A DNA stretch of 64,000 bases from Gonapodya prolifera JEL478 (lineage: Eukaryota > Monoblepharomycota > Monoblepharidomycetes > Monoblepharidales > Gonapodyaceae). The first letter of the stretch is position 1, and each line of letters starts with the position of its first letter. The DNA lies in NCBI GenBank assembly GCA_001574975.1, contig KQ965783.1, positions 167,976 to 231,975 on the forward strand, read 5' to 3'. Position numbers and translations under genes: made by a program. Below, piece by piece: positions 34,503 through 59,428 of the stretch. The notes under the pieces were generated by a model, which did no database searches, was not told the origin of the DNA, and saw only the letters and a list, made by a program, of their open reading frames with translations.

Positions 34503-35055
34503 CGTTGTGTTTTGAATGCTTTCCGCGTTTGGGTTTTATTGCAGAAGCACACCGCCACCCGTGGTTTGGTCTGTGTTACCCTGGGCCGACGTTGCCGAGG
34601 TATGGAAGCGAGTTTCCTTCAGTAGCACCCCCGATTTTTCTCGGCGAAAAGAAAGTCTCGATTCGAGAACAAATTCTGGCGTCGAGAACTCTTCCATTCC
34701 CATCAAATGCTCCTCCTTGGTCTGCGCAATGGGACGCACACTCTCTCGCCGACCGCAGATGAATCACTCATCTACTCACTAATTCCACAACGACGCCGCT
34801 CACGACCACGTTGTTGAGACAGCTCCTTCCAGCTTCTTAGCCAACCTCTCCACGTTCTTCGACCATTTTGTCTGTATAAGTCTTGCTCTCAAAAGTACTT
34901 CCTTTTACAGCACATGACATAAACACACACAAGCGCTCAGAATAACTTTGCGCAAATTTTTTGCTTTCAAGTTCCAAAATACCACAAATCCAAGTCCGCC
35001 AAGTCCAAGTCCAAATGCACTGCTCCGTCCGCCCGTCCCACAGTCCCACAACAAA
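34503..35055. other. Intergenic region between tandem chitin deacetylase genes
   Basis: About 550 bases that should hold the 3' UTR of the upstream gene and the promoter of the downstream one. No gene or strong repeat seen. Confidence 0.55.
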
Positions 35056-37207
35056 TCACACATACCCTCCCGACCCGTCCCCGTCGCACTGCGCGATTGT
35101 GACGAAGCGGTACCCCTTTGACTGAATAAACGTGATCGCGTTGTCGAGGTAGCTGCTCGCGTAAATGTCGTGGCTGAGTTGGATGGCCGAGTTGCTGGAA
35201 CACCAAGAACGGGGCGGGTGTCAGCGCGACGGTCCCTTTCCCAGCGACAGCGATGTGAAAGAGGGATAGAAGCACGTACCTGCCCGAGTTCCATCCGTTC
35301 AACGTTCCTTGGATGACGCCCAGCGCGCCGCCGGCGTTGCTGTAGTCGGTGGTGTCGATGTTCCATTGAACACCCTGGTCGAAACACGAGTGGCGTGAGA
35401 CCGTCAGTGACCATTTCGAATTGGTGCTGTTGGAAAAAAATAACAACGAAAAACGTACCCGAAGTCCTTTGGAGGCAATGTAATTCAATGCGGCCTGGTT
35501 AAAACTGCCATACGGGAACCTGAAATACGTCGGGGTCTTCCCAATGATCCCTCTAATTGTGCTCATAAGCTGGTCGATCTCCTGGTAATACGGGCAGCTG
35601 GCGCTATTGGCGAGATCGCAGTGTGACCACCCGTGCATGCCGATCTGGAACCCGCGGTTCACGCTGTCCCGGAGCAGGTCGGCGTAGTTGCCGATGTAGT
35701 CGTAGTTCTGACCGTTGCAGAAGAAGGTGCCCACGACACCGCGGCGGATCAGGATGTCCTTGATTGCTTGCGTGTTGCTGCGTGCAGTGAAGGTAGGGGG
35801 AAGAGTGAGGTGTGGACGCAAGGTTTGAGATTGAAAAGAAGCAGTGCTCACTAGTTTGGTCCATCATCAAACGTCAATGCTTGACACCCACGCAACGGCA
35901 ATTCAGCATCGCAAGGCTACAGCGCGTCACACTACAACTGCTCACCATATTGGCCAGCCTGCTTGCAACTGTAAATGACGACACCGGGTGCGCTTCCACC
36001 GCCAGTTTGTGGAGGCGGAGGCGGTGGGGGCGGCGGTGGGGGAGATCCTGGTGGTGGTGGAGGTGGGGGCGGACCGGTACCGGAGCATGCTCCGTATGTG
36101 CGCTACAAAGGAAGTCGGAAATCAGAACGAGGGTCGAGGTCGGTGAACATCAAAACACCGTCCGTGGTTCGTGCGGCGGCGGAGGGGAGGCAGAGCCACT
36201 CACTTGACATCCAGTTCCGCAGCTTTTAGCACGTATTCGTGTTTTGAGGTCGTGCCGAGTGCGAGTGCGAGTGCGTGAGATGACAACTACGCACGCGTAA
36301 AGGGAGACGACTCAACTGGTCAGACGTGGTCCCGCACCACGCGTACTGGGAGCAGCATTGTCCAGATGGGCATACCGTGTTGCCGAACCCGGATCCGCAG
36401 CGGCCGTCTTGTGAGATCGGACCGGTTGGAGGTGGAGGGGGGCTTGGAGGCGGTGGTGGGGGCGGAGGAGGCGGAGGCGGAGATGGTGGCGGTGGAGGAG
36501 GCGAAGGCGGTGGTGAACCGTTGCATTTGCCAAACGCGGACTAAAGAAATTGTGGGTTGAACTGGCGCGTAAAGTGAACACTGGACCTCGGAGACATACT
36601 TGACAACCACTTCCACAACTATTTTTGCATTTGTGGTGTGTTTGGGGGGTGAGGTAATGTTTGCGTCAAGAGTCGGTGCAGCCGCCTTTTCGCCATGAAA
36701 ACTCACTGATCTGTCGTGCTACCACACCAAGCATACTGCGAGCAGCATTCACCACTGGGACAGACAGTACCGCCGTACGAGGATCCGCATCGGCCGTCGG
36801 ATGAAATTGGACCGCTCGGCGGCGAGCTCGGAGGGGGCGAACTTGGCGGCGGCGTGCTTGGAGGAGGAGTGCTTGGAGGAGGAGTGCTTGGCGGTGGTGG
36901 TGGCGACGTGCCGGTGCAAGATCCGAATCCAGGTTGGCAGCCTGATCCACAACTGTGGGAGACGTCAATAACATTTGCATCAACCGGCCACAACTGGGCA
37001 TTTTTCTTCAACGTACTACGCGTCGGTGGTCCCGCAGTAACCGTACTGCGAGCAGCACAACGATCCGCACTGTCCCCCGAACCCGGTGCCGCAGCGTGTT
37101 TGACGACGGGTTAGCTCGACTGCAGAGACCCCGGGCGCGCTCGCAGCCACTAGCAACGCGAAAAGCGTGCAGAAAACGAACGCAGCAGCGCGCATGTTCC
37201 GCATCAT
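35056..37207 (-). CDS. Secreted chitin deacetylase (CE4) with three N-terminal CBM18 domains
   Basis: Ten exons, complement(35056..35194, 35280..35374, 35459..35777, 35852..35879, 35946..36102, 36204..36222, 36317..36540, 36600..36618, 36707..36952, 37020..37207), give 477 residues. Signal peptide MMRNMRAAAFVFCTLFALLV. CBM18 cores: LCCSQYGYCGTTDACGSGC, ECCSQYAWCGSTTD with HCGSGC, and QCCSQYAWCGTTSD with HCGTGC. Pro-rich linkers join them. The CE4 motifs TFDDGP, MHGWSHCDL, RFPYGSFN, WNIDTTD and IQLSHD are intact. Exons 1-3 and the last four match the neighbouring paralogue almost nucleotide for nucleotide in length (246, 19, then 28, 319, 95, 139). The extra CBM18 corresponds to one added exon pair (224 + 19 nt). 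Confidence 0.95.
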
Positions 37208-37613: not shown

Positions 37614-39979
37614 TTAATTCTTCCTGAGACGCTTGTACTTGTTCTGAGCGGTTCACACATCAGCATGTGCACCTGACCACAACGCAGAGGCGAACCACAC
37701 ACCTTTGCAGGTACAGGGGGGTAAAGACTTTTCAAGTGCTGGAGTTTCTTTTCGAGCAGCTCAATGGTGAATTTCTTCTCCTCAGATTCGAATTCAGATT
37801 CCAAATCGACAATGTCCTTGTACTGCTGGGACGCCACGTTTAAGCCGTACTTGGCATCCATGAAGGTTTGGTGCCTTTTCCAAAACCATTGAAAGAGATA
37901 CCGTCAAATTGAGACGCGTTTATAAAGTATTCCCCCAAAAGAAAAAAGCTCACACTGAAGCAACAAGGTGGTTCCGCTTCCTCAGCTCCTCCGACTCCTT
38001 CTTGTACGCTTCCACGAGTGACTCGACCTCGTTCTCCGTGAGTGTTCTGCCCGTGTGTTGGATCGTGCACTGTTTCACCACACTGATATCATCAGCACCA
38101 ACAACTTTGGCCTCAACTCGGAGCTGGGAACTGGTTAGATTGGGACAGGAGTAGAACCATCAAATCAAAACGCCCTCGTGGGCCAACAAAAAATCCCACT
38201 CACCCAATCGAAACGTGGCACTTCATCGTCACCGTCACCGATCCCTTGGGTCCATTTGGAAGTCCACCGAGGACCACCGTTCCAATCAAATTGTTCTTTT
38301 CGTACTGACCGTGCATTCCTTGAAGGACTTTGAACTCCATGGCGGCTTGGTCGTCCACAGTCGTGATAAAGTCGCACGTCACCTCAACGGGAATAGGCTT
38401 GCCGCGCTTCACGACTGTCCACGGTACGTAAGCAGAATCTTTGGCGCTCTTCACAACGACGCTTATGGGTAACGGCACAGTGTCGGTGATTTGCCCATAC
38501 GGGTACATTCTTGAAAAGAGACAAGGCGTCAACGTTTTGACGTTGATAAAACACAAAACGATTTTGCACCAAGATGATTACTCACCCGCTCATCAAGTTG
38601 TAAGCATAGTATGCAGCACCGGCCGCGACGGCCGTTTTGGGATCCAGCGGTTCCCCAAGAACTTCGTCTCCAAATATGCGTTGCAGCATCAACCTGCAGT
38701 GCGGCAAGTAAGCTCCTCCTCCAGAAAGCACCACCCGCTTAATATCGTCTGTTCGTATGTCTTCACGTCGCTTCGTGCGCGATTGGTTGCAGACCGCAAG
38801 CAGGTCGGCGAAGAGTTTCTCAGTATGTTCAGTAAGCTTCTGGCACACTTTCTTGAACTCCGACGCCTGGATGTACACGACCGGATAGTTGGATATCTTC
38901 ACTTCTGTTTCAAGGTTATCGAGGTATCCTTGGCTGCATCGGATCTTGTACTTCTCTGACTCGCGTCTCACTGTCGCCTCCACTTCGTGTGTAACGTCGA
39001 ATTTCAGCTCGGTGTACTTGGCGATAATTAGGTCGTACATGTAGTTGTCAATGTCGGTTCCTCCAAAGTTGACGCTGTCAGTCGCGATGGCACCCATCGA
39101 AGTGTTCGTGACAGATGCTATAGAAATGTCCAACGTCCCGGCACCAAGATCCCATACGGCGACAATTGTCTCTGACCCCAAATTTAAAAAAGAGTCATAA
39201 ACTTGCGGATTTTGTCGTCTATCCTCAATCAATAGCGCCGTTTGTTCGTTCAATAAACCAAGAACTTCAAAGCCTGCAATTCTTCCAATGTTGAACGTGG
39301 CTTGCCGCTGGGCAGCGTTGAAGTTGGACGGGACGGTAAGGATTGCGCGTGGTTCTTGCTTGGGCCTCTTGTTGGAGAGAATATTCCGGTAAAATCGCAA
39401 GACCTTTGCCTGCAACTCTTCAGGGGAGTATCTCCGGGGCTGTTTGCTAGGATCGTACGGCCGTCGGGAAGATTTCCTTGCAAATGTTACAAGTACGCGC
39501 TTGTCAGTGGTATCATCCCCAGTGATCGTATAGTTCCTGAAAGGTCATCTCTTTGGTGAAATAGATTGAAGTATAACGTAGCAGCGTTTGGACACTCACA
39601 CCCTTTGTCGAAGTGTTTCGATTGCCGCCAGGTCATTTGGTTCGTCAAAGCTCCGACCCAGAACCCTCTTGAGTTCATGCACAGTTGTGTGCCCGTCAAG
39701 CCTCTTGTCCTTCGCGCGCTCGCCGACGACATAATGAGAGTCATTATCAAGAAGGATTTCAACAGGACCTTGAAACGGCAAGATTTGAAAGGGCCAAAGT
39801 TTCGTTGAACGAAGAGCCGAATCAACAAATGACCATCACCTATAGGACTCACATGAGTATTGCTGATGGTAATTGAATGGAACGGGCTCCGGCTTTCCCT
39901 CCCTGTCGACCCAGGCCACAACCAAGTTCGATGTTCCGATATCGATTCCAACCGGGTATGATACGTTTTTTTCACTCAT
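37614..39979 (-). CDS. Divergent Hsp70-family protein
   Basis: Start at ATG 39979 (MSEKNVSYPVGIDIGTSNLVVAW), the phosphate-1 loop of the Hsp70 ATPase. Exon 1 ends at 39853 and joins in frame to CPVEILLDNDSHYVVGERAK. A large exon (about 38582-39530) holds EPRAILTVPSNFNAAQRQAT, GFEVLGLLNEQTALLIEDRR, the phosphate-2 motif VWDLGAGTLDISIAS, FGGTDIDNYMYDLIIAKY and KRVVLSGGGAYLPHC. The next exons encode a substrate-binding beta domain (VPLPISVVVKSAKDSAYVPW) and a short helical lid (TENEVESLVEAYKKESEELR). The end, KNKYKRLRKN at 37614, lacks the cytosolic EEVD motif. The sequence is far from canonical Hsp70, so a specialised chaperone role is likely. It is the intact parent of the pseudogene upstream (40340-42560). 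Confidence 0.85.
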
Positions 39980-43222: not shown

Positions 43223-46200
43223 CCATGGCGAAGCCTCCGCGTCCTTTCAGCTTCGGTCCGGACACCGGCATCACTCCTACAAGCCAGGTGAACATGCCAT
43301 CCCGTCGCGGACGATGATGAATTGAAGTCCGGCACCAGCATGGCTCATCACACGACTCCTAATTCTTCTACTGCATTTTCGACATCTCTCTCTCTCTCAT
43401 CACCGCTGCTGTCAAAACCTTCAACAATACTGCAAATCCGCACACCAAAAAGGAGAGACCGGATCTTCCAGATGAGGAAGATCAGAATCCTACAATGGCA
43501 CAAGTTGGTGGGTTAAATGCAAATTGTTCTTGAAGATTATCACCTGTGGCGGGCAAAACCAAAAGGTGTCATTCGCCTCCAAAGGTCAATCTACTGCGGA
43601 GCTCATTCAATCCACCGCTCAACTTGTCGCCGGCTTTCCGTCACGCCAAAACTCAAACGGTTCTCTGCACGATGACGCCGGGGGACTCGGAGGCGGACGG
43701 GTCCGATTCGACTCTCCTGTTCAAGCTCCATCACCTCGCGTGAAATCGTCGCCACCCAAGAATGATGGCCCCAAGGCCGCCGCGGGAGCTAACTTGAAAT
43801 CGGCGTTTAAGCGGACAAAGACGAAGAAGTCGTTCGCTCTCACACCGAAGGGGAACTTGCAGGTACGATGTCGATAGACTTGAAGACTTGAAGAGGGCTT
43901 TTGAGATGCGCATTGATGATGAGGACTTCGCATTTTGGTCAAATACGCAACGAGTCGTGGGAAAAGGTTGGGTGCAATATCTGTCATCAACCATTCCACC
44001 TCGGATTTTAAATGGCACGACTCTGATGGCTTTATTCGTCTCACTCACACTATCTGTCACGTGCTAGGTCGACGTCAAAGTACCCCCAAAGCTCATAGAA
44101 GGATCCAGCCTCACTGGATGGGAAACTGAGTACCTCCGATACACAGGTGCGACTTTCTTCCGAATGGTCTTCTGCTTCACTGCATTCACCTGTGTCTCGT
44201 TTTCTGGCGTTACTCGAACTCACAAGCTCCCGCATGTGATCCAGACGACTTTCCAAAGCAAGGATTTACCTTGCGCCCCAAAGAGCACTCGACTCCGCGC
44301 CAGATCGAACTCGCAATTTGTGGGTCTCACAACTTTTCTGTCGCTGACGAGCGCAACCCGCATGACCTTAACTCGCACATCTAAAGGCTGCACCATGTAC
44401 AACGAACCTCCCGAGCTTCTTGCCAAATCCTGGACGGGTCTCGTCGAGAATCTTACTTATCTGACCAAAAAGTCCCGCTCCCCCACATGGGGCCCAGACT
44501 CATGGAAGAAAATTGTTGTCGTGATCGTCTCGGACGGCCGCGCAAACTGCAACAGGCAGACTCTGGCACAACTTGGGCTCATGGGTCTGTACCAGGACGG
44601 CGTCATCGTAGGAACGGTCCCCAAGAAGACCACTTCGGCTGACGGAGGAAACGAACAGGCCAAAGTCTCAGCACACATATTTGAGTACACGACACAAGTG
44701 ATGGTGGATGTGGACGACATGAACAAGGAGAGCATTGTCCCGACGATTCCGATCCAGACCATCTTCATTCTCAAGGAGCAGAACGCGAAGAAAATCAACT
44801 CGCACAGATGGTTTTTCCATGGAATTTGCCCGATTCTCCAGTACGTGATATCCTCTGGCTTTGCGAGGTGCCTTATTGTGCTCAGGTATGATGGATTGTT
44901 TTCAGACCACGAGTGACCGTACTCCTTGACGTGGGAACCCGGCCGTTGGAAAAATCTATCTACCATTTGTGGAAGGTGTTTGATCGGCACCCGAACGGTA
45001 AGCCCTGGTGCATGTTGTCCCTAGATTCAATATTGTAATCCTAGCAACCTCGCGTTGCCTGCGTAGTGGGTGGAGCATGTGGAGAAATTCGTGCAGAGCT
45101 GGGTTATTTGTGGCAGAACGTCCGGAACCCGTTGGTTGCCGCGCAGGTGAGAGTTCGTCATGCGATTGTGCTTCCATGTCTTTAATCTTGCATCTTAATA
45201 TTACTCCCAGAACTTTGAATATGTGAGTGCTTGAATTTGTTCACCGTGTTTATTGTCGGGCCCATATTGATCCAAGTTACGACGAACCAATACAGAAAAT
45301 CTCAAATATTCTCGACAAGCCGCTAGAGTCCGTCTTTGGCTACATTTCCGTGCTTCCCGGCGCGTTTTCGGCATATCGGTTCGCTGCACTCCAGGCAAAC
45401 GTGAAAGACAAGCAAGGGAACCCCGCAGGTCCGTTACAAGCGTACTTTAAGGGAGAGGCACTACATAATGGCAAGCTGCAAGGGAGTGAGTTTCATCTCT
45501 CCTTGTATTTTTTCCGTCGAGTTTGCCCATCACGATGTCGGTGCTTTTTCTGACAGACACTTTTATCAACAACATGTACCTTGGTGAGCTCTCGTCTTGT
45601 ATAATCGGTATTTAACAATACTAACACGCATTCTCAACACATCCAGCGGAGGATCGCATTCTCTGCTTCGAGCTTGTGTCAAAACCCAATGAATCCTGGG
45701 TTTTACGATACGAGCGTGCATCAGCAGCTGAGACAGATGTTCCAGACACCATTCACGAGCTTATTAAGCAACGCCGGCGGTGGCTTAACGGGTCCACTTT
45801 CGCCGCACTCTACGCCATCTGGAACTGGTCTCACATTTTCCGATCGGCACACTCCAGGTTCCGCAAGCTTTTGTTTATTCTCGAGACAGGATACAACGTA
45901 CTTGTGCAAATTTTTGCGTGGTTCTCGCTGGTTCGTGCAATGCGTTAATTGTTTGTGGTTTCGGTGTAATCATGGCTGACGTGTACGTTCGATATTGGCA
46001 GGCCAATTTCTATCTTACTTTCTTCTTTGTGATTGAGCAGAACAAGTGTGGGCCAGGCACTGAAGCCGATCTGAAGCTCTGCGAGACCCAAGGTGCATTT
46101 GGTCGAGCTGGATTTTATATTGCCGAGCCCCTCAAGGCAATCTACCTGATGCTCATCTGTGTTCAATTCAGTCAGTACCTGTGCTAGTTTGCGTTTTCTT

Positions 46201-52229: not shown

Positions 52230-52735
52230 CTGTGCCGCTCGCGTATTGGACTGCGCGGAATATGGGGCTGAGCGTGGAAGGAGCGACGCTTGCTGGTGTT
52301 ATGGTGTTGTGTGATCGGCTCCACAATTTGGATGAGGCTGGGACTTGTGGGGTTGCCGTTTGGAGACGACACGGATGAGAGGAGTTTGACGTATGGTTGG
52401 TGGTTCGGAGGAGGCAGTGTGGCCTTCTTGGGCTGGGTGTGGCACTATGTGCCGTTTTGGTTTGTTCCACGAGTGCTGTAGTAAGTTGCTGTTTGTGTTA
52501 CATCACTGGACGCAGACTAATTTTTTCACCGCCTATGACAAAACCAGCCTTCATCACTACCACCCCGCTCTCTACTTTGCCATCCTCTCTCTCGCGCGCT
52601 TTCTGGACCAAATATCCCGCACCCTTCCCCACCGCTATGCTCGCCTTCCCTTCATCGTGGTGGGAATGCTCGTCGTTCTGTCGTTCTTCTACTTCAAGGA
52701 CGTTTCGTACGGGATGGCAGGACCCAGTGAAAGTC
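52230..52735 (+). pseudogene. Marooned C-terminal fragment of a protein O-mannosyltransferase (PMT) gene
   Basis: Two exons joined by a normal intron (donor GTAAGT at 52481, acceptor before 52548) read GWWFGGGSVAFLGWVWHYVP, then RVL joined to YLHHYHPALYFAILSLARF, then a final membrane helix FIVVGMLVVLSFFYFKDVSYG. This is the characteristic end of PMT-family dolichyl-phosphate-mannose:protein mannosyltransferases. The catalytic N-terminal part is absent: to the left is the CpG-poor repeat block and an N at 52221. The right end (after GMAGPSE, about 52730) runs straight into Sel1-repeat sequence of the opposite strand. It is a broken fragment, because the retained intron rules out a processed copy. 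Confidence 0.75.
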
Positions 52736-55640
52736 CTTCTCCAATCTTTCACCACAATAGTAACATTACCATTTACCCAAGTCTGATTTGCGCAGACCAT
52801 AACCCTTGGTGTGCCGCCTTGCAAAGCCACACTACTGCCTGTATAAAATCTTTCTTCACACCTTTACCACTGCAGTAGCACACCCTGAGTTTGAACTCTG
52901 CTTTTGCGTTCCCCTGCTCCGCAGCCCTGCAGATTCACATAGTGGAAAGTGCATAGTCCATCCGCACTCCTCTTCCATTCATGTAGCATGAACCAAGCCA
53001 GGTCTGAGTACTGGTGTTCCCCTGGTCTGCAGCCTTGCAGAACCACTTAACTGCCTGTACATGATGACCACTCCTTCACCCTTATAGTAGCACAGCCCAA
53101 GTTTGAACTGCACGATTGCATTGTCCTCACGGCAGCCTTACTGTACCACAGAATAGCCATTGGTAAGTCCTTCTCCACTCCTTCACCATTACTGTAGTAT
53201 GAACCGAGCCAGCTCTGTGCAATCGCGCTGCTCTGCTGAGCAGCCTTATAGAACCACATAACAGCCTGCGTTAAGTCCTTCTCCACTCCTTCACCATGAT
53301 AGTAGTGCTTGCCCAGATTATTCTGTGCAATTGGGTTACCCTGTTCAGCAGCCTTGCATAACCACATTAAAGCCTGAGCACAGTCCTTTTCCACTCCTTT
53401 ACCATGGTGGTAAGTTGGTAACACCACCCAAGTTTGTTCTGCCCACTGGCACTACCCTGTACAGCGGGCTTGTGAAACCACATTACAGCCTGCGCAAGGT
53501 CCTTTTCTACTCCATTGCCATTATGGTTACAAATCCCCAATTCAAATTGTGCAACAGGATGTCCCTGAAGTGCAGCCATATTGCAGCCTTTCCAAGGTCC
53601 TTCTCCATTCCTGTTCCAGTAGAATAGCATGAACCAAGCCAGTCCTGTGCAGTTGCATTCCCTTGCTCTACTGCCTTGCAAAACCAAACTACAGCCTGTT
53701 CACAGTCCTCATCAACCCTGTTACCATCATAGTGGCATGAGCCGAGTCTGTTTTGTGCAACTGCATAGCCCTGTTCAGCTGCCTTGTGGAACCACAGCAC
53801 CACTTTTGCATGGTCCTTTTCAACTCCTTCACCATTATAGCTGCATAAACCAACCCAATCTTGCACCATTGCATTCCCCTGCTCGGCAGCCTTATGGAAC
53901 CATACTAGAGCTTGTCCAAAGCCCTGGTCTACTCCCTTGCCATAATAGTAACACTCCCTGAGTCTGTTCTGCGCGATGAGATTTCCCTGCTCAGTGGCTT
54001 TGTGAAACCAAAATACAGCCTGCACATTGTCCTTATCCACGCCAAAACCAAAGTTGTAGCAAGTTCCAAAGTGAACTTGTAATGTTGGTTCGCCCTGCGC
54101 CGTCACAAATTGGCCTGGGTAGCCTTGTTGGAGCGCCTTTTCATACCATTGTCTTGCAAGCTCGTGGTCTTTATCCAACTCAATCCTTCCCAGCTGATAA
54201 GCCCAACCAATCAGCAGCTACCCAGCCATGTATCCCTGGTCTGCAACCTGTTGCCAAAGCTCCACTGTTTTGCACTCATACATAGACGCAGCCCCATAGC
54301 CAATACAGTAGTATTCTCCAAGCCAAATCTGCGCCATGCCATTGTTACTGTCTGCTGCTTTTTGGAACCGCCGCAAGGCCAGCTCGTGATGTCTGTCAAC
54401 ACCAAGACCGCAGCGGTACACAGTCAGCTTCCTCGTATGCAACTTTTGCGTCCTCCGTTATTGATGTCAAGCTCTGTGGGGCGGCATATCCAGAATTGTC
54501 CCGACTCGTGCTTGAAGTGAACTCTCACTGGACTTGAAACTTCCTGCAGTTTATCGATTATTGCCATCCCACGTTCAGTGATCCACGACTGGGTATCTAT
54601 TAACACACCTGAGACCCGCCATGACAGGCACAATTCCCCGCGCAAAGCACTCAGGTCGAGATGCAGGGTCTTTGTCCCAGCATTGTGCCATCAAATCTCT
54701 GAGAGCGTTCGGCATGCATTTAAACCGTGCGTCCAATAGTTCAGGTCGTTTCTTCGAAAATGCAATTGGCATCTTGAGTTCTTGAAACTCTTCGGCATCA
54801 AAATTCCATACGGGCGTCCAACAATCCAGACCTGTAGGGCACGATTTTCCCAACGTGGTCTGCACATGCTCGCACTATGAGCACTTCACGGCAATTCAGG
54901 ACTCTCACCGCGTAGCAAGTGATCCCAAAAGAGTAGATGTCGCGGCCCCGGGGAAGCTTTGTATCCGGGAGAAAACGGCTCATTCGCTGGCGCAGAGCGT
55001 CGGGTGACAAGTATAAGTCCGTTCCAGACAGAGGGTCGGTACTTCCCGCTCCGTACTTGGCCATACCAAAGTCTGAGACCGCTACCGTCGCGTCCCTCAC
55101 CCCTCACCAGGATGTTGCCGGGTTTCAGGCTCAGGTGGGAGATACCCTCTGCCCCAACACGTACATTCCAAGAGCAACTTCATGGAGCTGTCGGTCGGCG
55201 CTTTCAAAGCTCGCTCGCCTCACGAACCCATGGTGTCACTCACGAGTTTTATCTTCAAAGGAGTCATTGAAGCGCCTTCGGCCTCCATCTTCTGAAGATA
55301 TGCAATCGCGTCGCTCTCCATGAGACGCGAGATCATGAATGGCGCGCCTTGTGCGTCAATGCAAGCGCTGTGGAGTGGAACGATGTTATCGTGGGGCAGA
55401 ATGCTTGCCCACACTTTGACCTCGTCCAAAAAGGCCCGCTGCACCTGCAAAGAGTCCTCCTGTTTTGCATCCGCGTACATCGTAACATAATGCGTACTTA
55501 CCCTGTCGTCAGAAAAGTCTGCATTCAATGACTTGACCGCGACTGGGCCCAGAAGCTTCCAGGATCCTCGATACCCTGTTCCGAACCCCCGGGGCCAAGA
55601 CAGACGGAGACCAGCTCACATCCTTTTGCCGCACCAGCCA
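52736..55640 (-). pseudogene. Protein-kinase-like plus Sel1-repeat gene, frameshifted and probably inactive
   Basis: A kinase-like domain comes first on the minus strand: GFGTGYRGSWKLLGPVAVKS (glycine loop and VAVK lysine, about 55520-55600), then MISRLMESDAIAYLQKME, LKPGNILV, VAVSDFGMAKYGAG (DFG present), RDIYSFGITCYAV and FDAEEFQELKMPIAF with WDKDPASRPECF. The catalytic-loop HRD reads HLS, so the catalytic Asp is missing. About ten Sel1 repeats follow (VFWFHKATEQGNLIAQNRL type, 54178 to about 52736), the fold used as an adaptor in many early fungal kinases. The repeats change frame several times (near 53520, 53400 and 53130) and contain stops, and a frame problem also lies at the G-run at 55590. 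Either a pseudogene or poorly sequenced. Confidence 0.7.
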
Positions 55641-56333: not shown

Positions 56334-58149
56334 ATGTGCTCAACTCTCTGGTCCATCTGGAACAGAAAAACTGTTCTCGCAAGGGACTACATCGTACACA
56401 ACCCAATCGGTGAGCTTTCATTCCTAATCTGTCTCCTTCCTTTCGTTATATCTTTCGTCCGGTCCCGCACTCCGATATTGCGGACTCACCTTGTCGCCCT
56501 CAGAATTTGGAGCACACGCCATCGTCTATACAGCTACCCACCGATTTACGGGTCGCCACGTGGCGTTAAAAGTGTTCGAAAAGAGCAGAAAGGACTCCAA
56601 AGCGTTTTGGGAGAACGAAGCCGAGGTACTATTCAGAGTCCGCGGGTGAGTTTTGCTTGATTTCGGGGGACGCGACGCCGGACGGGACGTGAGGTACTGG
56701 AGAGCTTGGGCGACAAGAAGCGTGCATGTCACTGTCACGGATCGACTTGGATTCACAACGTACAACGTGCACGCAGGCACAAAAACTCTTCCCAAATCAT
56801 CGACCACTTCGAAACACCCACCCAATTCTGCATCGCTCTTGAGCAAGGTAGGCCGCACCACGCACGTCCGCCTTCCCCGTCAAACGGCGTTCTACTTGCG
56901 CTGGCCGCTGCACTCATATACACGACGCTTGTTCCAATCATCACCCCGCGACGCGCTCGCATCTAGCCTCAGGTGACGAGATTATCTCACGGCTCATATA
57001 CAGAGGCTCGTTTGGAGAGCGTGATGCCGCCGCTATTGTCGCTCAGGTTCGTGCGAGGCGTGAATCGATGCTTGGAACACTGCCACGATATCCCCATGTT
57101 TGCAACCTCGTGCCAACCATGCGTGCGCGTCGACCTAATTGACCGTCTCCTTCCCCCTTCGCCCGACTTCAGCTATGTCGCGCTGTTGCATATCTGCACC
57201 ATGGTGAGCATCTTTCTTTCCTGTGCTCGTACTTCCACAAGAGCGGTTGTTCTTATCGTGCTTTGATTGCGTTCATTCTCACCCGACGTCGTTACGCACG
57301 CCAGGCATCGTCCACCGCCAAATCACACCCGAAAACATGTCCGTACCCGTTCATCATGTTCCCTTTTGCTTCACGTGACCACCCACCCTCTCCTCCGTCC
57401 CTCTCCCCTCACTGCCCTCGTCGCGGCGTGATATATTGCCGTTCCCCCATTCTCTCCCACCGACCCCCTGCCACCAACCAGTCTCTTCCAAACCACCTCT
57501 CCCACATCACCCATCATCATCGTCGGTTTCAGTCACGCAGCATTCCTCTCGTCCAAGCCCGCACCCGGTGCGATCGCTGCCTTGGGCGATGACGTGCCGC
57601 AACCCTCGTACATCCCGTGCAACACCGCCCCCGAAGTCCTGCTGGGGCAAGAGTACTGGCCGAAAGCGGATGTGTATGCCGTGCGGGTTATCGCGTGTGA
57701 GTTCGCATTCCCATCACGCGCGGGGTGCAGCTCTGTCGCGATCGCCCCTTTCTTCATCACCTGATCACACCCCTTCCTTCCCCTCCCCCGCACCACCAGA
57801 CACGCTCCTCTGCGGGTACACCCCCTTCCACCACCCCACCACGCCCTCTCTCGTCACCTCCGCCGTGATCGCCGGTTCGTGGTCCTTTGACGCCCCCTAC
57901 TGGGACTACGTTAGTGGAGCTGCGAGGGATTTTGTGAGCAGGTGTATGATGACGGATCTGAAGGGGAGGATGTCGGCGGGGGAGGCGGTGGAGCATCCTT
58001 GGTTGGCTGGCTTGGATAAGGTGGGGAAGGAGAAGGAGGAGCTGAGTGAGGATGATGATGATGGTGAGCTGGAGTGGGTTCGTGCCGGAGGCCGTGGTGG
58101 TGGTGGGCGTGTACGTGATAGACACACCAGCTGTTGTTTGATTCTCTAG
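56334..58149 (+). CDS. CAMK-type pseudokinase with C-terminal CaaX prenylation motif
   Basis: Eight exons, join(56334..56409, 56504..56645, 56777..56847, 56973..57046, 57173..57203, 57305..57338, 57482..57696, 57800..58149), keep frame to 330 residues. CaM-kinase layout: IGEFGAHAIVYTAT (degenerate Gly loop), HVALKVF (Lys49 kept), IDHFETPTQFCIALE, then GIVHRQITPENILF, where catalytic HRD is HRQ (Gln138). IIIVGFSHAAF follows, where DFG is GFS (159-161). TAPEVLLGQEYWPKADVY, CGYTPFHHP, FDAPYWDYVSGAARDF and EHPWL complete the C-lobe. Both catalytic acidic residues are therefore gone while the fold is kept. An acidic stretch (SEDDDDGELE) and Gly/Arg-rich tail end in CCLIL-stop, a CaaX box whose final Leu favours geranylgeranylation. 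Inference: a membrane-tethered, catalytically dead scaffold or regulator. Confidence 0.85.
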
Positions 58150-59428
58150 TTAGACCGGATGGGGTTTTTGGAACGTGTTTTGTGAGAAGCCTCCCTCCTG
58201 TGATGTGCAACTAACAGTTTTTGTATTGCAAGTATGTATTCTTGTTTTGACACACTCTGCGTCATTGCGATGATTCCCGCCGCGGGTGTCCGTCCCATTC
58301 ATTTCCCGTTAGTCGGTGTCGCACTAGTTCCCTGGGTGGAGACGTTTCAATTTTGATAATGGCAAAACGAAGAAGTGGGAGATGGTCGGCCGTTCGGGGT
58401 GTGAGGGTTGCGGGGGTAGTCAGGCGGACCCGCCAAAGCCCGAACTCAACTCAACGCAACACTCGCACTCCACGCGAAGACACGAAACCAGCAATGCCTT
58501 CCCAGACTCGCTGGCGTAGGCGACAGCGTGGTTCAGAACGGAAACGGCCCGTGAGGTGAGGACTGCGAGCATCCGCGATGGCAGGCCTGAACGCAGCGGG
58601 TTCCCTGCTGGACGTCCATGCGCTACCAACAGCCACCAAAGTAATCCTCCCACTTTTCGTAACCATAAAAGAGCTACTGAGAGGGAAGACCGTCAACACA
58701 GTGAAATCTGGACTGCTAAACGAAAACCCAACATCATGCGCAATGACTTTCAACGAATAGAACTGTTGCCACGACAAAAGGTGAGCGTAGCCTCCAAGGA
58801 CTTATTCACCGTACTAGAAATTACATGGATAGTGCTGTGAAAGTTGCACAGGTGCACGATAGGAATCGCAGTGGGAATATTGGTCCATGTGTACATTCCC
58901 TTGTTTTACCGTTTCTGACTTTATTAACTAAAATGCCATATGCGCCCCAACAGCCCGTGTCCACGTCATGCAGCGTCTTTTTATCGCTTTATTACGTTCA
59001 TCAACAATCAGCGAGCTTGACAACCAGTGGGGCGTCATTCTGGAGCACACGGCATGACGATCGACACTTCCTCTAACATTCAGGAAGGATTGTGATGGTA
59101 AGGGTAAATTGCACCCAAGGCAGTTGGGCTTTAGGTGGAGTTTATTTCATGTCTGTCTATTTGCACACTTAATTTGGAAGCATTTGCTGTATTATGAAGC
59201 TAATTTGTTATTTCTTTTCAAAAGCATTGCTATTTCGCATTATCCTCGTAGTTTAATCACTGAGCGTTCGGCATTGTTGCGTATCAACAATGCCCTTTGT
59301 CTTGTGACTTTGCCCACTTCTTCGTCCCCTTCTCGGGAAGTACTGACCATCGATATTCGCCAAATAACGACAATGCATTGTACAATACTATCAAAATGCG
59401 ACATAGTTTCGCTTCAAAAGAATACGTG
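58150..59428. other. 1.3 kb convergent intergenic region, no gene recognised
   Basis: Lies between the pseudokinase stop and the golgin stop. A 60-codon plus-strand frame at 58578-58760 has coding-like composition (LLDVHALPTATKVILPLF) but no known domain. The right third (about 58830-59300) is AT-rich and looks non-coding. Confidence 0.4.

Follow-up and report, generated by a model that had tools for sequence, protein, structure and literature searches.

The window, namely the whole stretch of 64,000 nucleotides of Gonapodya prolifera JEL478 analysed here, carries on its forward strand, at positions 56334 to 58149, a gene for a CAMK-type pseudokinase in which both catalytic aspartates are lost and whose chain, as modelled, ends in a CaaX box of geranylgeranyl type. 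With slightly better than even confidence, we consider the gene to be functional and its product to be a dead CaMK-like protein, lipid-tailed, which would act as a membrane-fixed scaffold or competitive inhibitor.

The gene comprised eight exons, giving 993 spliced bases (330 codons and a stop), and seven introns of 94–143 nt, all GT-AG. The eight exons spliced in frame without any internal stop, as the initial annotation had read them, and the other two spliced frames contained 8 and 14 stops. The genome searched was the window's own (47.56 Mb, 207 contigs), and labels beginning with C denote its contigs or loci. The features of the gene are the following:

56334–56409, forward strand: exon 1, MCSTLWSIWNRKTVLARDYIVHNPI; ATG start with A at −3 of the ATG; ends in phase 1.
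56504–56645, forward strand: exon 2, with a degenerate glycine loop (EFGAHA), the VALK lysine Lys48 and the helix-C Glu64 (spliced model, structure-database match, family alignment).
56777–56847, forward strand: exon 3, HKNSSQIIDHFETPTQFCIALEQ (spliced model, family alignment).
56973–57046, forward strand: exon 4, GDEIISRLIYRGSFGERDAAAIVAQ (spliced model, family alignment).
57173–57203, forward strand: exon 5, LCRAVAYLHH, 31 nt; its counterpart in C111 is an exon of 34 nt.
57305–57338, forward strand: exon 6, GIVHRQITPEN; its length of 34 nt equals that of the C111 exon. HRQ stands for HRD and Thr for the catalytic-loop Lys, and Asn142 remains.
57482–57696, forward strand: exon 7, DFG changed to GFS (158–160), altered activation segment, APE (192–194), Asp206 kept, Gly changed to Arg211.
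57800–58149, forward strand: exon 8, end of the C-lobe and a tail of about 45 residues ending in GGRGGGGRVRDRHTSCCLIL and a stop.
58135–58146, forward strand: CaaX box CLIL, residues 327–330; Cys326 before it is a candidate palmitoylation site.

Donor scores of the seven introns ranged from 5.5 to 9.1 and acceptor scores from 3.5 to 6.3, the medians in 75 introns of related kinases being 7.1 and 5.4; the splice matrices were built from these 75 introns of at most 300 nt, taken from 13 of the 21 models of relatives, a 76th intron containing N having been dropped. The GC content at codon positions 1, 2 and 3 was 0.57, 0.47 and 0.65. The intron after PEN starts at the donor GTCCGT at 57339, which yields PENILF and a site common in column and phase to C2a, C109a, C109b and C111; a donor at 57343 for this intron 6 was rejected on account of its wrong phase. 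Alternative splicing that restores HRD or DFG was also rejected: HRD was absent from the three frames of 56334–58160, and the sole DFG string, at 56659 within intron 2, is a chance match that lies in a different frame and ahead of the catalytic loop.

The Pfam Pkinase domain spanned residues 25–283 (E = 5.2e-39). The ten best solved matches by phmmer were forms of CaMKIV and CaMKI, the best being CaMKIV at 1.4e-44, which places the homology beyond chance, and the third CAMK1G at 4.3e-42. Judged from these matches, the 330-residue protein carries a complete bilobal kinase domain of the CAMK group, closest to the CaMKs. HRQ, GFS, the ATP-site lysine (Lys48) and APE were all found as first described. 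In the family alignment, HRQ occupies residues 135–137, with Gln137 at the HRD aspartate; Thr139 replaces the catalytic-loop lysine; and GFS occupies 158–160, with Gly158 for the aspartate and Ser160 for the glycine of DFG, while Phe159 stays. In the glycine loop, Glu26 takes the place of the first glycine and Ala31 that of the third, where C2a, C109b and C111 have Gly. Arg211 replaces the Gly five residues past the conserved Asp206, and the activation segment is unlike that of the relatives and longer ahead of APE. Kept residues are Val33, Ala46, Lys48, Glu64, Leu68, His135, Arg136, Asn142, Phe159, Ala-Pro-Glu 192–194, Asp206 and Arg271. By the codon table, the change from Asp to Gln at HRD takes at least two base changes, and the six alterations G26E, D137Q, K139T, D158G, G160S and G211R together at least seven, so a single sequencing error is ruled out as their cause.

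Of VAIK, HRD and DFG, the loss of any one of which defines a pseudokinase, the first is kept (as VALK) and the other two are lost, and the HRD aspartate, catalytic-loop lysine and DFG aspartate of an active kinase are here Gln137, Thr139 and Gly158. From these losses the protein is expected to be catalytically inactive, and phosphotransfer by it seems very unlikely; nucleotide may still be bound. The fold appears to have been kept and the chemistry lost: His135, Arg136 and Phe159 support the fold, His135, Phe159 and Leu68 are regulatory spine residues, and all four stay. A residual or unorthodox activity, in which nucleotide would be held via Lys48 and Glu64 without metal and serve some transfer or a nucleotide-driven switch, is highly improbable. 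Lys48, Glu64 and Asn142 are indeed kept, and CASK binds nucleotide without metal; CASK, however, retains the HRD aspartate where this protein has Gln, and here Thr stands for the catalytic-loop lysine and the glycine loop is degenerate. A further precedent for such activity is STRAD-alpha, which, in the available part of the source, is regulated by ATP binding, though pseudokinases are described there as being without essential catalytic residues (PMC2686265).

To place the gene among its relatives, a splice-aware aligner was used to model 21 kinase stretches in 19 fetched regions; the pseudokinase served as query, so that similar exon edges may be favoured in these models. The family alignment comprised 18 relatives, the pseudokinase and two human CaMK domains. 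C9a, C7 and C104, poorly modelled or other kinds of kinase, were left out of it: C7 has HRD and DFG, C9a has HRD and DFV, and the C104 model stops short of the catalytic loop. The HRD aspartate was kept in 18/18 aligned relatives, the pseudokinase being the sole one of the 19 without it. The DFG aspartate was kept in 17/18, with C2b counted by reading its DNA and C127 not resolved by its model; an apparent lack of DFG in C2b was rejected as a modelling error, DFG being present in the DNA. The identification as a CAMK-type pseudokinase is therefore well supported, both aspartates being lost here.

The tree had 17 rows, C3, C57, C73 and C127 being left out. The pseudokinase grouped with C111, C2a, C109a and C109b with a support of 85/81 (below the 95/80 mark), and this clade sat in an 11-row group separate from human CaMKIV and CaMKI-gamma (98/97). 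Identity over aligned columns was 41% to C111, 37% to C109b and 35% to both C109a and C2a. The terminal branch of the pseudokinase measured 1.33 changes per site, three to six times the length of those of C111, C2a, C109a and C109b (0.32, 0.28, 0.41 and 0.23); other long branches were C26a (1.04), C26b (1.08) and C9b (1.66). Five of the seven intron sites of the pseudokinase matched at least one of C111, C2a, C109a and C109b in column and phase, four of these sites matching C111:

Column 103, phase 1: C2a.
Column 137, phase 0, and column 159, phase 2: C2a, C109a, C109b and C111.
Column 148, phase 1: C111.
Column 258, phase 1: C109a, C109b and C111.
Column 20, phase 1: agrees with C120.
Column 77, phase 2: none.

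C111, C109a, C109b and C2a are the nearest kin of the pseudokinase and share intron sites with it; unlike it, they keep HRD and DFG, and all four have a tail with [YF]LxYLR. The tail of the pseudokinase, examined by eye, is acidic and then rich in Gly and Arg, and no basic amphipathic helix of calmodulin-binding type was seen in it. Whereas the model of the pseudokinase ends in CLIL, C109b, C111 and C2a have no CaaX ahead of the first in-frame stop.

Some other relatives showed peculiarities of their own. A second partly degenerate CaMK-like kinase lies at C73:159500–164500 (reverse strand), with LRD for HRD and DFT for DFG, both aspartates being kept and 13/42 near-invariant columns changed. 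In C70a, C70b and C26b, Arg replaces the catalytic-loop lysine, and HRD and DFG are kept. CaMK-like kinases stand in adjoining pairs on C70, C109 and C26, suggesting tandem duplication.

A dead kinase with an unbroken frame might also be a young pseudogene, an active kinase recently released from constraint. Consistent with this are the very long branch, which equally fits relaxed constraint, the several catalytic losses, and the absence of a close second copy or allele among the listed tblastn matches in its own genome. Among those listed, matches of at least 70 residues outside its own locus did not exceed 43% identity, shorter ones reaching 71% over 17 residues, and a second copy was rejected on these grounds. 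Against it stand the 330 codons free of stop and frameshift, GT-AG at 7/7 introns, and the conservation of 33/42 near-invariant columns, defined on 17 relatives (15 from the same genome and two human). In leave-one-out counts, 1–11 columns were changed in the 17 relatives and 9/43 in the pseudokinase, which was more eroded than 15/17 of them, equal to C9b (9) and less eroded than C26b (11); three misaligned columns of C2b are counted in both sets of figures. Neutral simulations were run from the present sequence with substitutions only, 2000 runs per level. The proportion of stop-free runs was 56% at 0.02 substitutions per site, 25% at 0.05, 4.9% at 0.1, 0.5% at 0.2 and 0.15% at 0.3, and 0/2000 at 0.45. 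At a divergence as large as that observed, drift would usually have broken the frame long ago, unless it began recently, and most of the branch of 1.33 has probably been under selection for an open frame. The pseudogene reading is improbable. Selection for a non-catalytic role, as originally proposed, gains indirect support only, from the frame having stayed open along a very long branch and from the core residues kept. A hand count of preferential loss at catalytic sites (3/6 catalytic columns changed, namely among K48, E64, D137, N142, D158 and G160, versus 6/36 others) was discarded, the numbers being too few to use.

The spliced model ends in CCLIL (326–330) before the stop, as had been claimed, and has the C-a-a-L/F form of a geranylgeranyl-type CaaX, provided that no further intron is used. 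Ends of the type C-x-[VILM]-[LF], in which x is any residue except D, E, K, R, P and G, preceded 8 of 8782 stops (0.09%) in the six frames of the window and the 19 fetched regions, that of the pseudokinase included; a looser CaaX pattern preceded 144 (1.6%). Among 20 Ras-superfamily loci fetched from the genome, whose ends were chosen by eye from their reading frames, nine had a CaaX-like end, eight of these with a final Leu. Two of them (C20 and C100), presumably of Rho type by their sequence features, end exactly in CLIL, and two more in CCIIL or CCVIL. The frames of C20 and C100 end nearly identically, and the contig pairs C88/C29 and C40/C162 likewise match alike, so the assembly may contain unmerged haplotypes or recent duplicates.

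A rival last intron has to be weighed against this end:

58064, forward strand: donor-like ATG|GTGAGC, score 8.4 (splice matrices).
58121, 58130, 58149 and 58153, forward strand: acceptor-like ends (splice matrices).

Any splice from 58064 to one of these acceptors removes the CaaX box, and the product would then be a functional but soluble pseudokinase; it would equally be soluble if CLIL were a chance tetrapeptide. The donor-like site is strong, its score being reached by 21/75 true donors and by a single internal site in 9.84 kb of the relatives' exons, and the introns starting from it would be 58–90 nt long, with pair scores of 10.9–13.6 (median of real introns 12.6). A 4-mer score, which divides exon from intron poorly, was −0.18 in the tail, +0.06 in the rest of exon 8 and −0.10 to +0.13 in the seven introns, the tail value leaning to intron. 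Additionally, no convincing CaaX was found in the 18 aligned relatives when read to the first in-frame stop with introns ignored: the C26b stop is preceded by CPAA, the C109a tail frame has no stop within the DNA examined, and a CSLI end in C2b was rejected as lying beyond the likely exon end. On the other hand, the candidate introns are rich in G (0.40–0.52, reached by 0–2 of the 75 introns of relatives), and the shorter two, with acceptors at 58121 and 58130, have no YTNAY branch-like site, a weak point, as 51/75 introns have one. The rarity of such ends and the identity of CLIL with the ends of two Ras-superfamily proteins also speak against a soluble form, which we regard as unlikely. Weighing the 58064 site against the 0.09% rate, we judge that CLIL is quite probably the true end of the protein.

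Matches to enzymes of such a modification were found in the genome, namely to the beta subunit of GGTase-I (C56, 1e-33), to ICMT at two places and, weakly and once, to an Rce1-like protein (1e-4). Two loci like farnesyltransferase beta, of which one is usual, were found at C19 and C75, and a fourth prenyltransferase-repeat locus, at C54, resembled Rab GGTase beta by eye only. The pseudokinase is likely prenylated at its CaaX, as predicted from its terminal residues. Prenylation, as the initial annotation had it, thus stands as a prediction drawn from the CLIL shared with two Ras-superfamily proteins and from the matches to the machinery, and the 58064 donor-like site leaves room for another end.

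On the reading of a functional, membrane-fixed pseudokinase, duplication among the CaMK-like kinases of a flagellated fungus would have given rise to the gene. Its product would have lost the Asp that serves as catalytic base (HRD to HRQ), the Lys of the catalytic loop and the Asp that binds the metal (DFG to GFS), and where the relatives have long tails it would carry a short linker, first acidic and then glycine/arginine-rich, ending in CCLIL. GGTase-I would geranylgeranylate Cys327, Rce1 and ICMT would process the end, and Cys326, perhaps also Cys2, would be palmitoylated, so that the folded pseudokinase is held on the membrane. There it may engage the partners, substrates or activators of its active CaMK-like kin, or regulators of the Rho pathway, as a scaffold or competitive inhibitor that does not phosphorylate them. 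Its membrane site and its role as scaffold or decoy are proposals, for which the systems below serve as analogy.

Lipid-anchored CAMKs, both dead and active, are already known in animals, where the combination exists in pieces. According to the available part of PMC9371321, CaMKv is a CAMK pseudokinase of brain with changed HRD (Asn145) and DFG (His168 for Gly), for which no in vitro kinase activity was detected; it is enriched at the plasma membrane by palmitoylation of the N-terminal Cys5 and inhibits GEF-H1. It resembles the present protein in its CAMK fold with HRD and DFG changed and in its lipid anchor, which is predicted here; it differs in being an animal protein with an N-terminal palmitoyl group, a calmodulin-binding region and a long disordered tail, and no CaaX is mentioned in that part of the source. 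CaMKI-gamma (CLICK-III, CAMK1G), as described in the available part of PMC10435254, is prenylated and then palmitoylated and activates the STEF-Rac1 pathway. It shares an anchor of prenylation type (predicted for the pseudokinase), but it is active and dependent on Ca2+/calmodulin, while the pseudokinase is without both catalytic Asps and, by eye, without a regulatory tail. PSKH1 and PSKH2 form a CAMK-group pair of kinase and pseudokinase with lipid membrane targeting, PSKH2 being myristoylated (PMC9988210, available part); the likeness lies in a CAMK-group pseudokinase with lipid targeting (predicted here), and the differences are N-myristoylation instead of a C-terminal CaaX and a pseudokinase form found in primates.

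Among the listed matches in the open-licence literature, no fungal or chytrid pseudokinase or prenylated kinase was described, in agreement with the novelty claimed at the outset; only this literature was covered, so the absence of a described fungal case is weakly evidenced. MLKL homologues of Glomeromycotina, and no CaMK pseudokinase, appear in the available part of PMC8778642. Tentatively, and with somewhat less than an even chance, a CaMK pseudokinase doubly lipidated in Rho/Ras style at CCLIL (geranylgeranyl and palmitoyl) may have evolved in one fungal lineage independently of the lipid-anchored CAMKs of animals and may, fixed to the membrane, regulate the fungus's own expanded CaMK-like kinases, as a convergent device similar to CaMKv or CaMKI-gamma. 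A dead kinase among catalytically intact CaMK-like relatives of one genome offers a clean case for the evolution of an enzyme into a scaffold, and its own CaaX end raises the question of whether lipid anchoring of CAMK pseudokinases has arisen more than once.

The genome gave a radial-spoke 3 match (8.5e-49) and the window matches to chitin synthase and protein-O-mannosyltransferase; the chitin synthase and mannosyltransferase mark a fungus and the radial-spoke protein a flagellated one. The neighbouring genes or exons in the window are the following:

34970–35851, reverse strand: polysaccharide deacetylase.
38585–39415, reverse strand: HSP70-like.
44164–44913, forward strand: chitin synthase.
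52393–52875, forward strand: protein-O-mannosyltransferase, C-terminal part.
53510–54178, reverse strand: Sel1 repeats.
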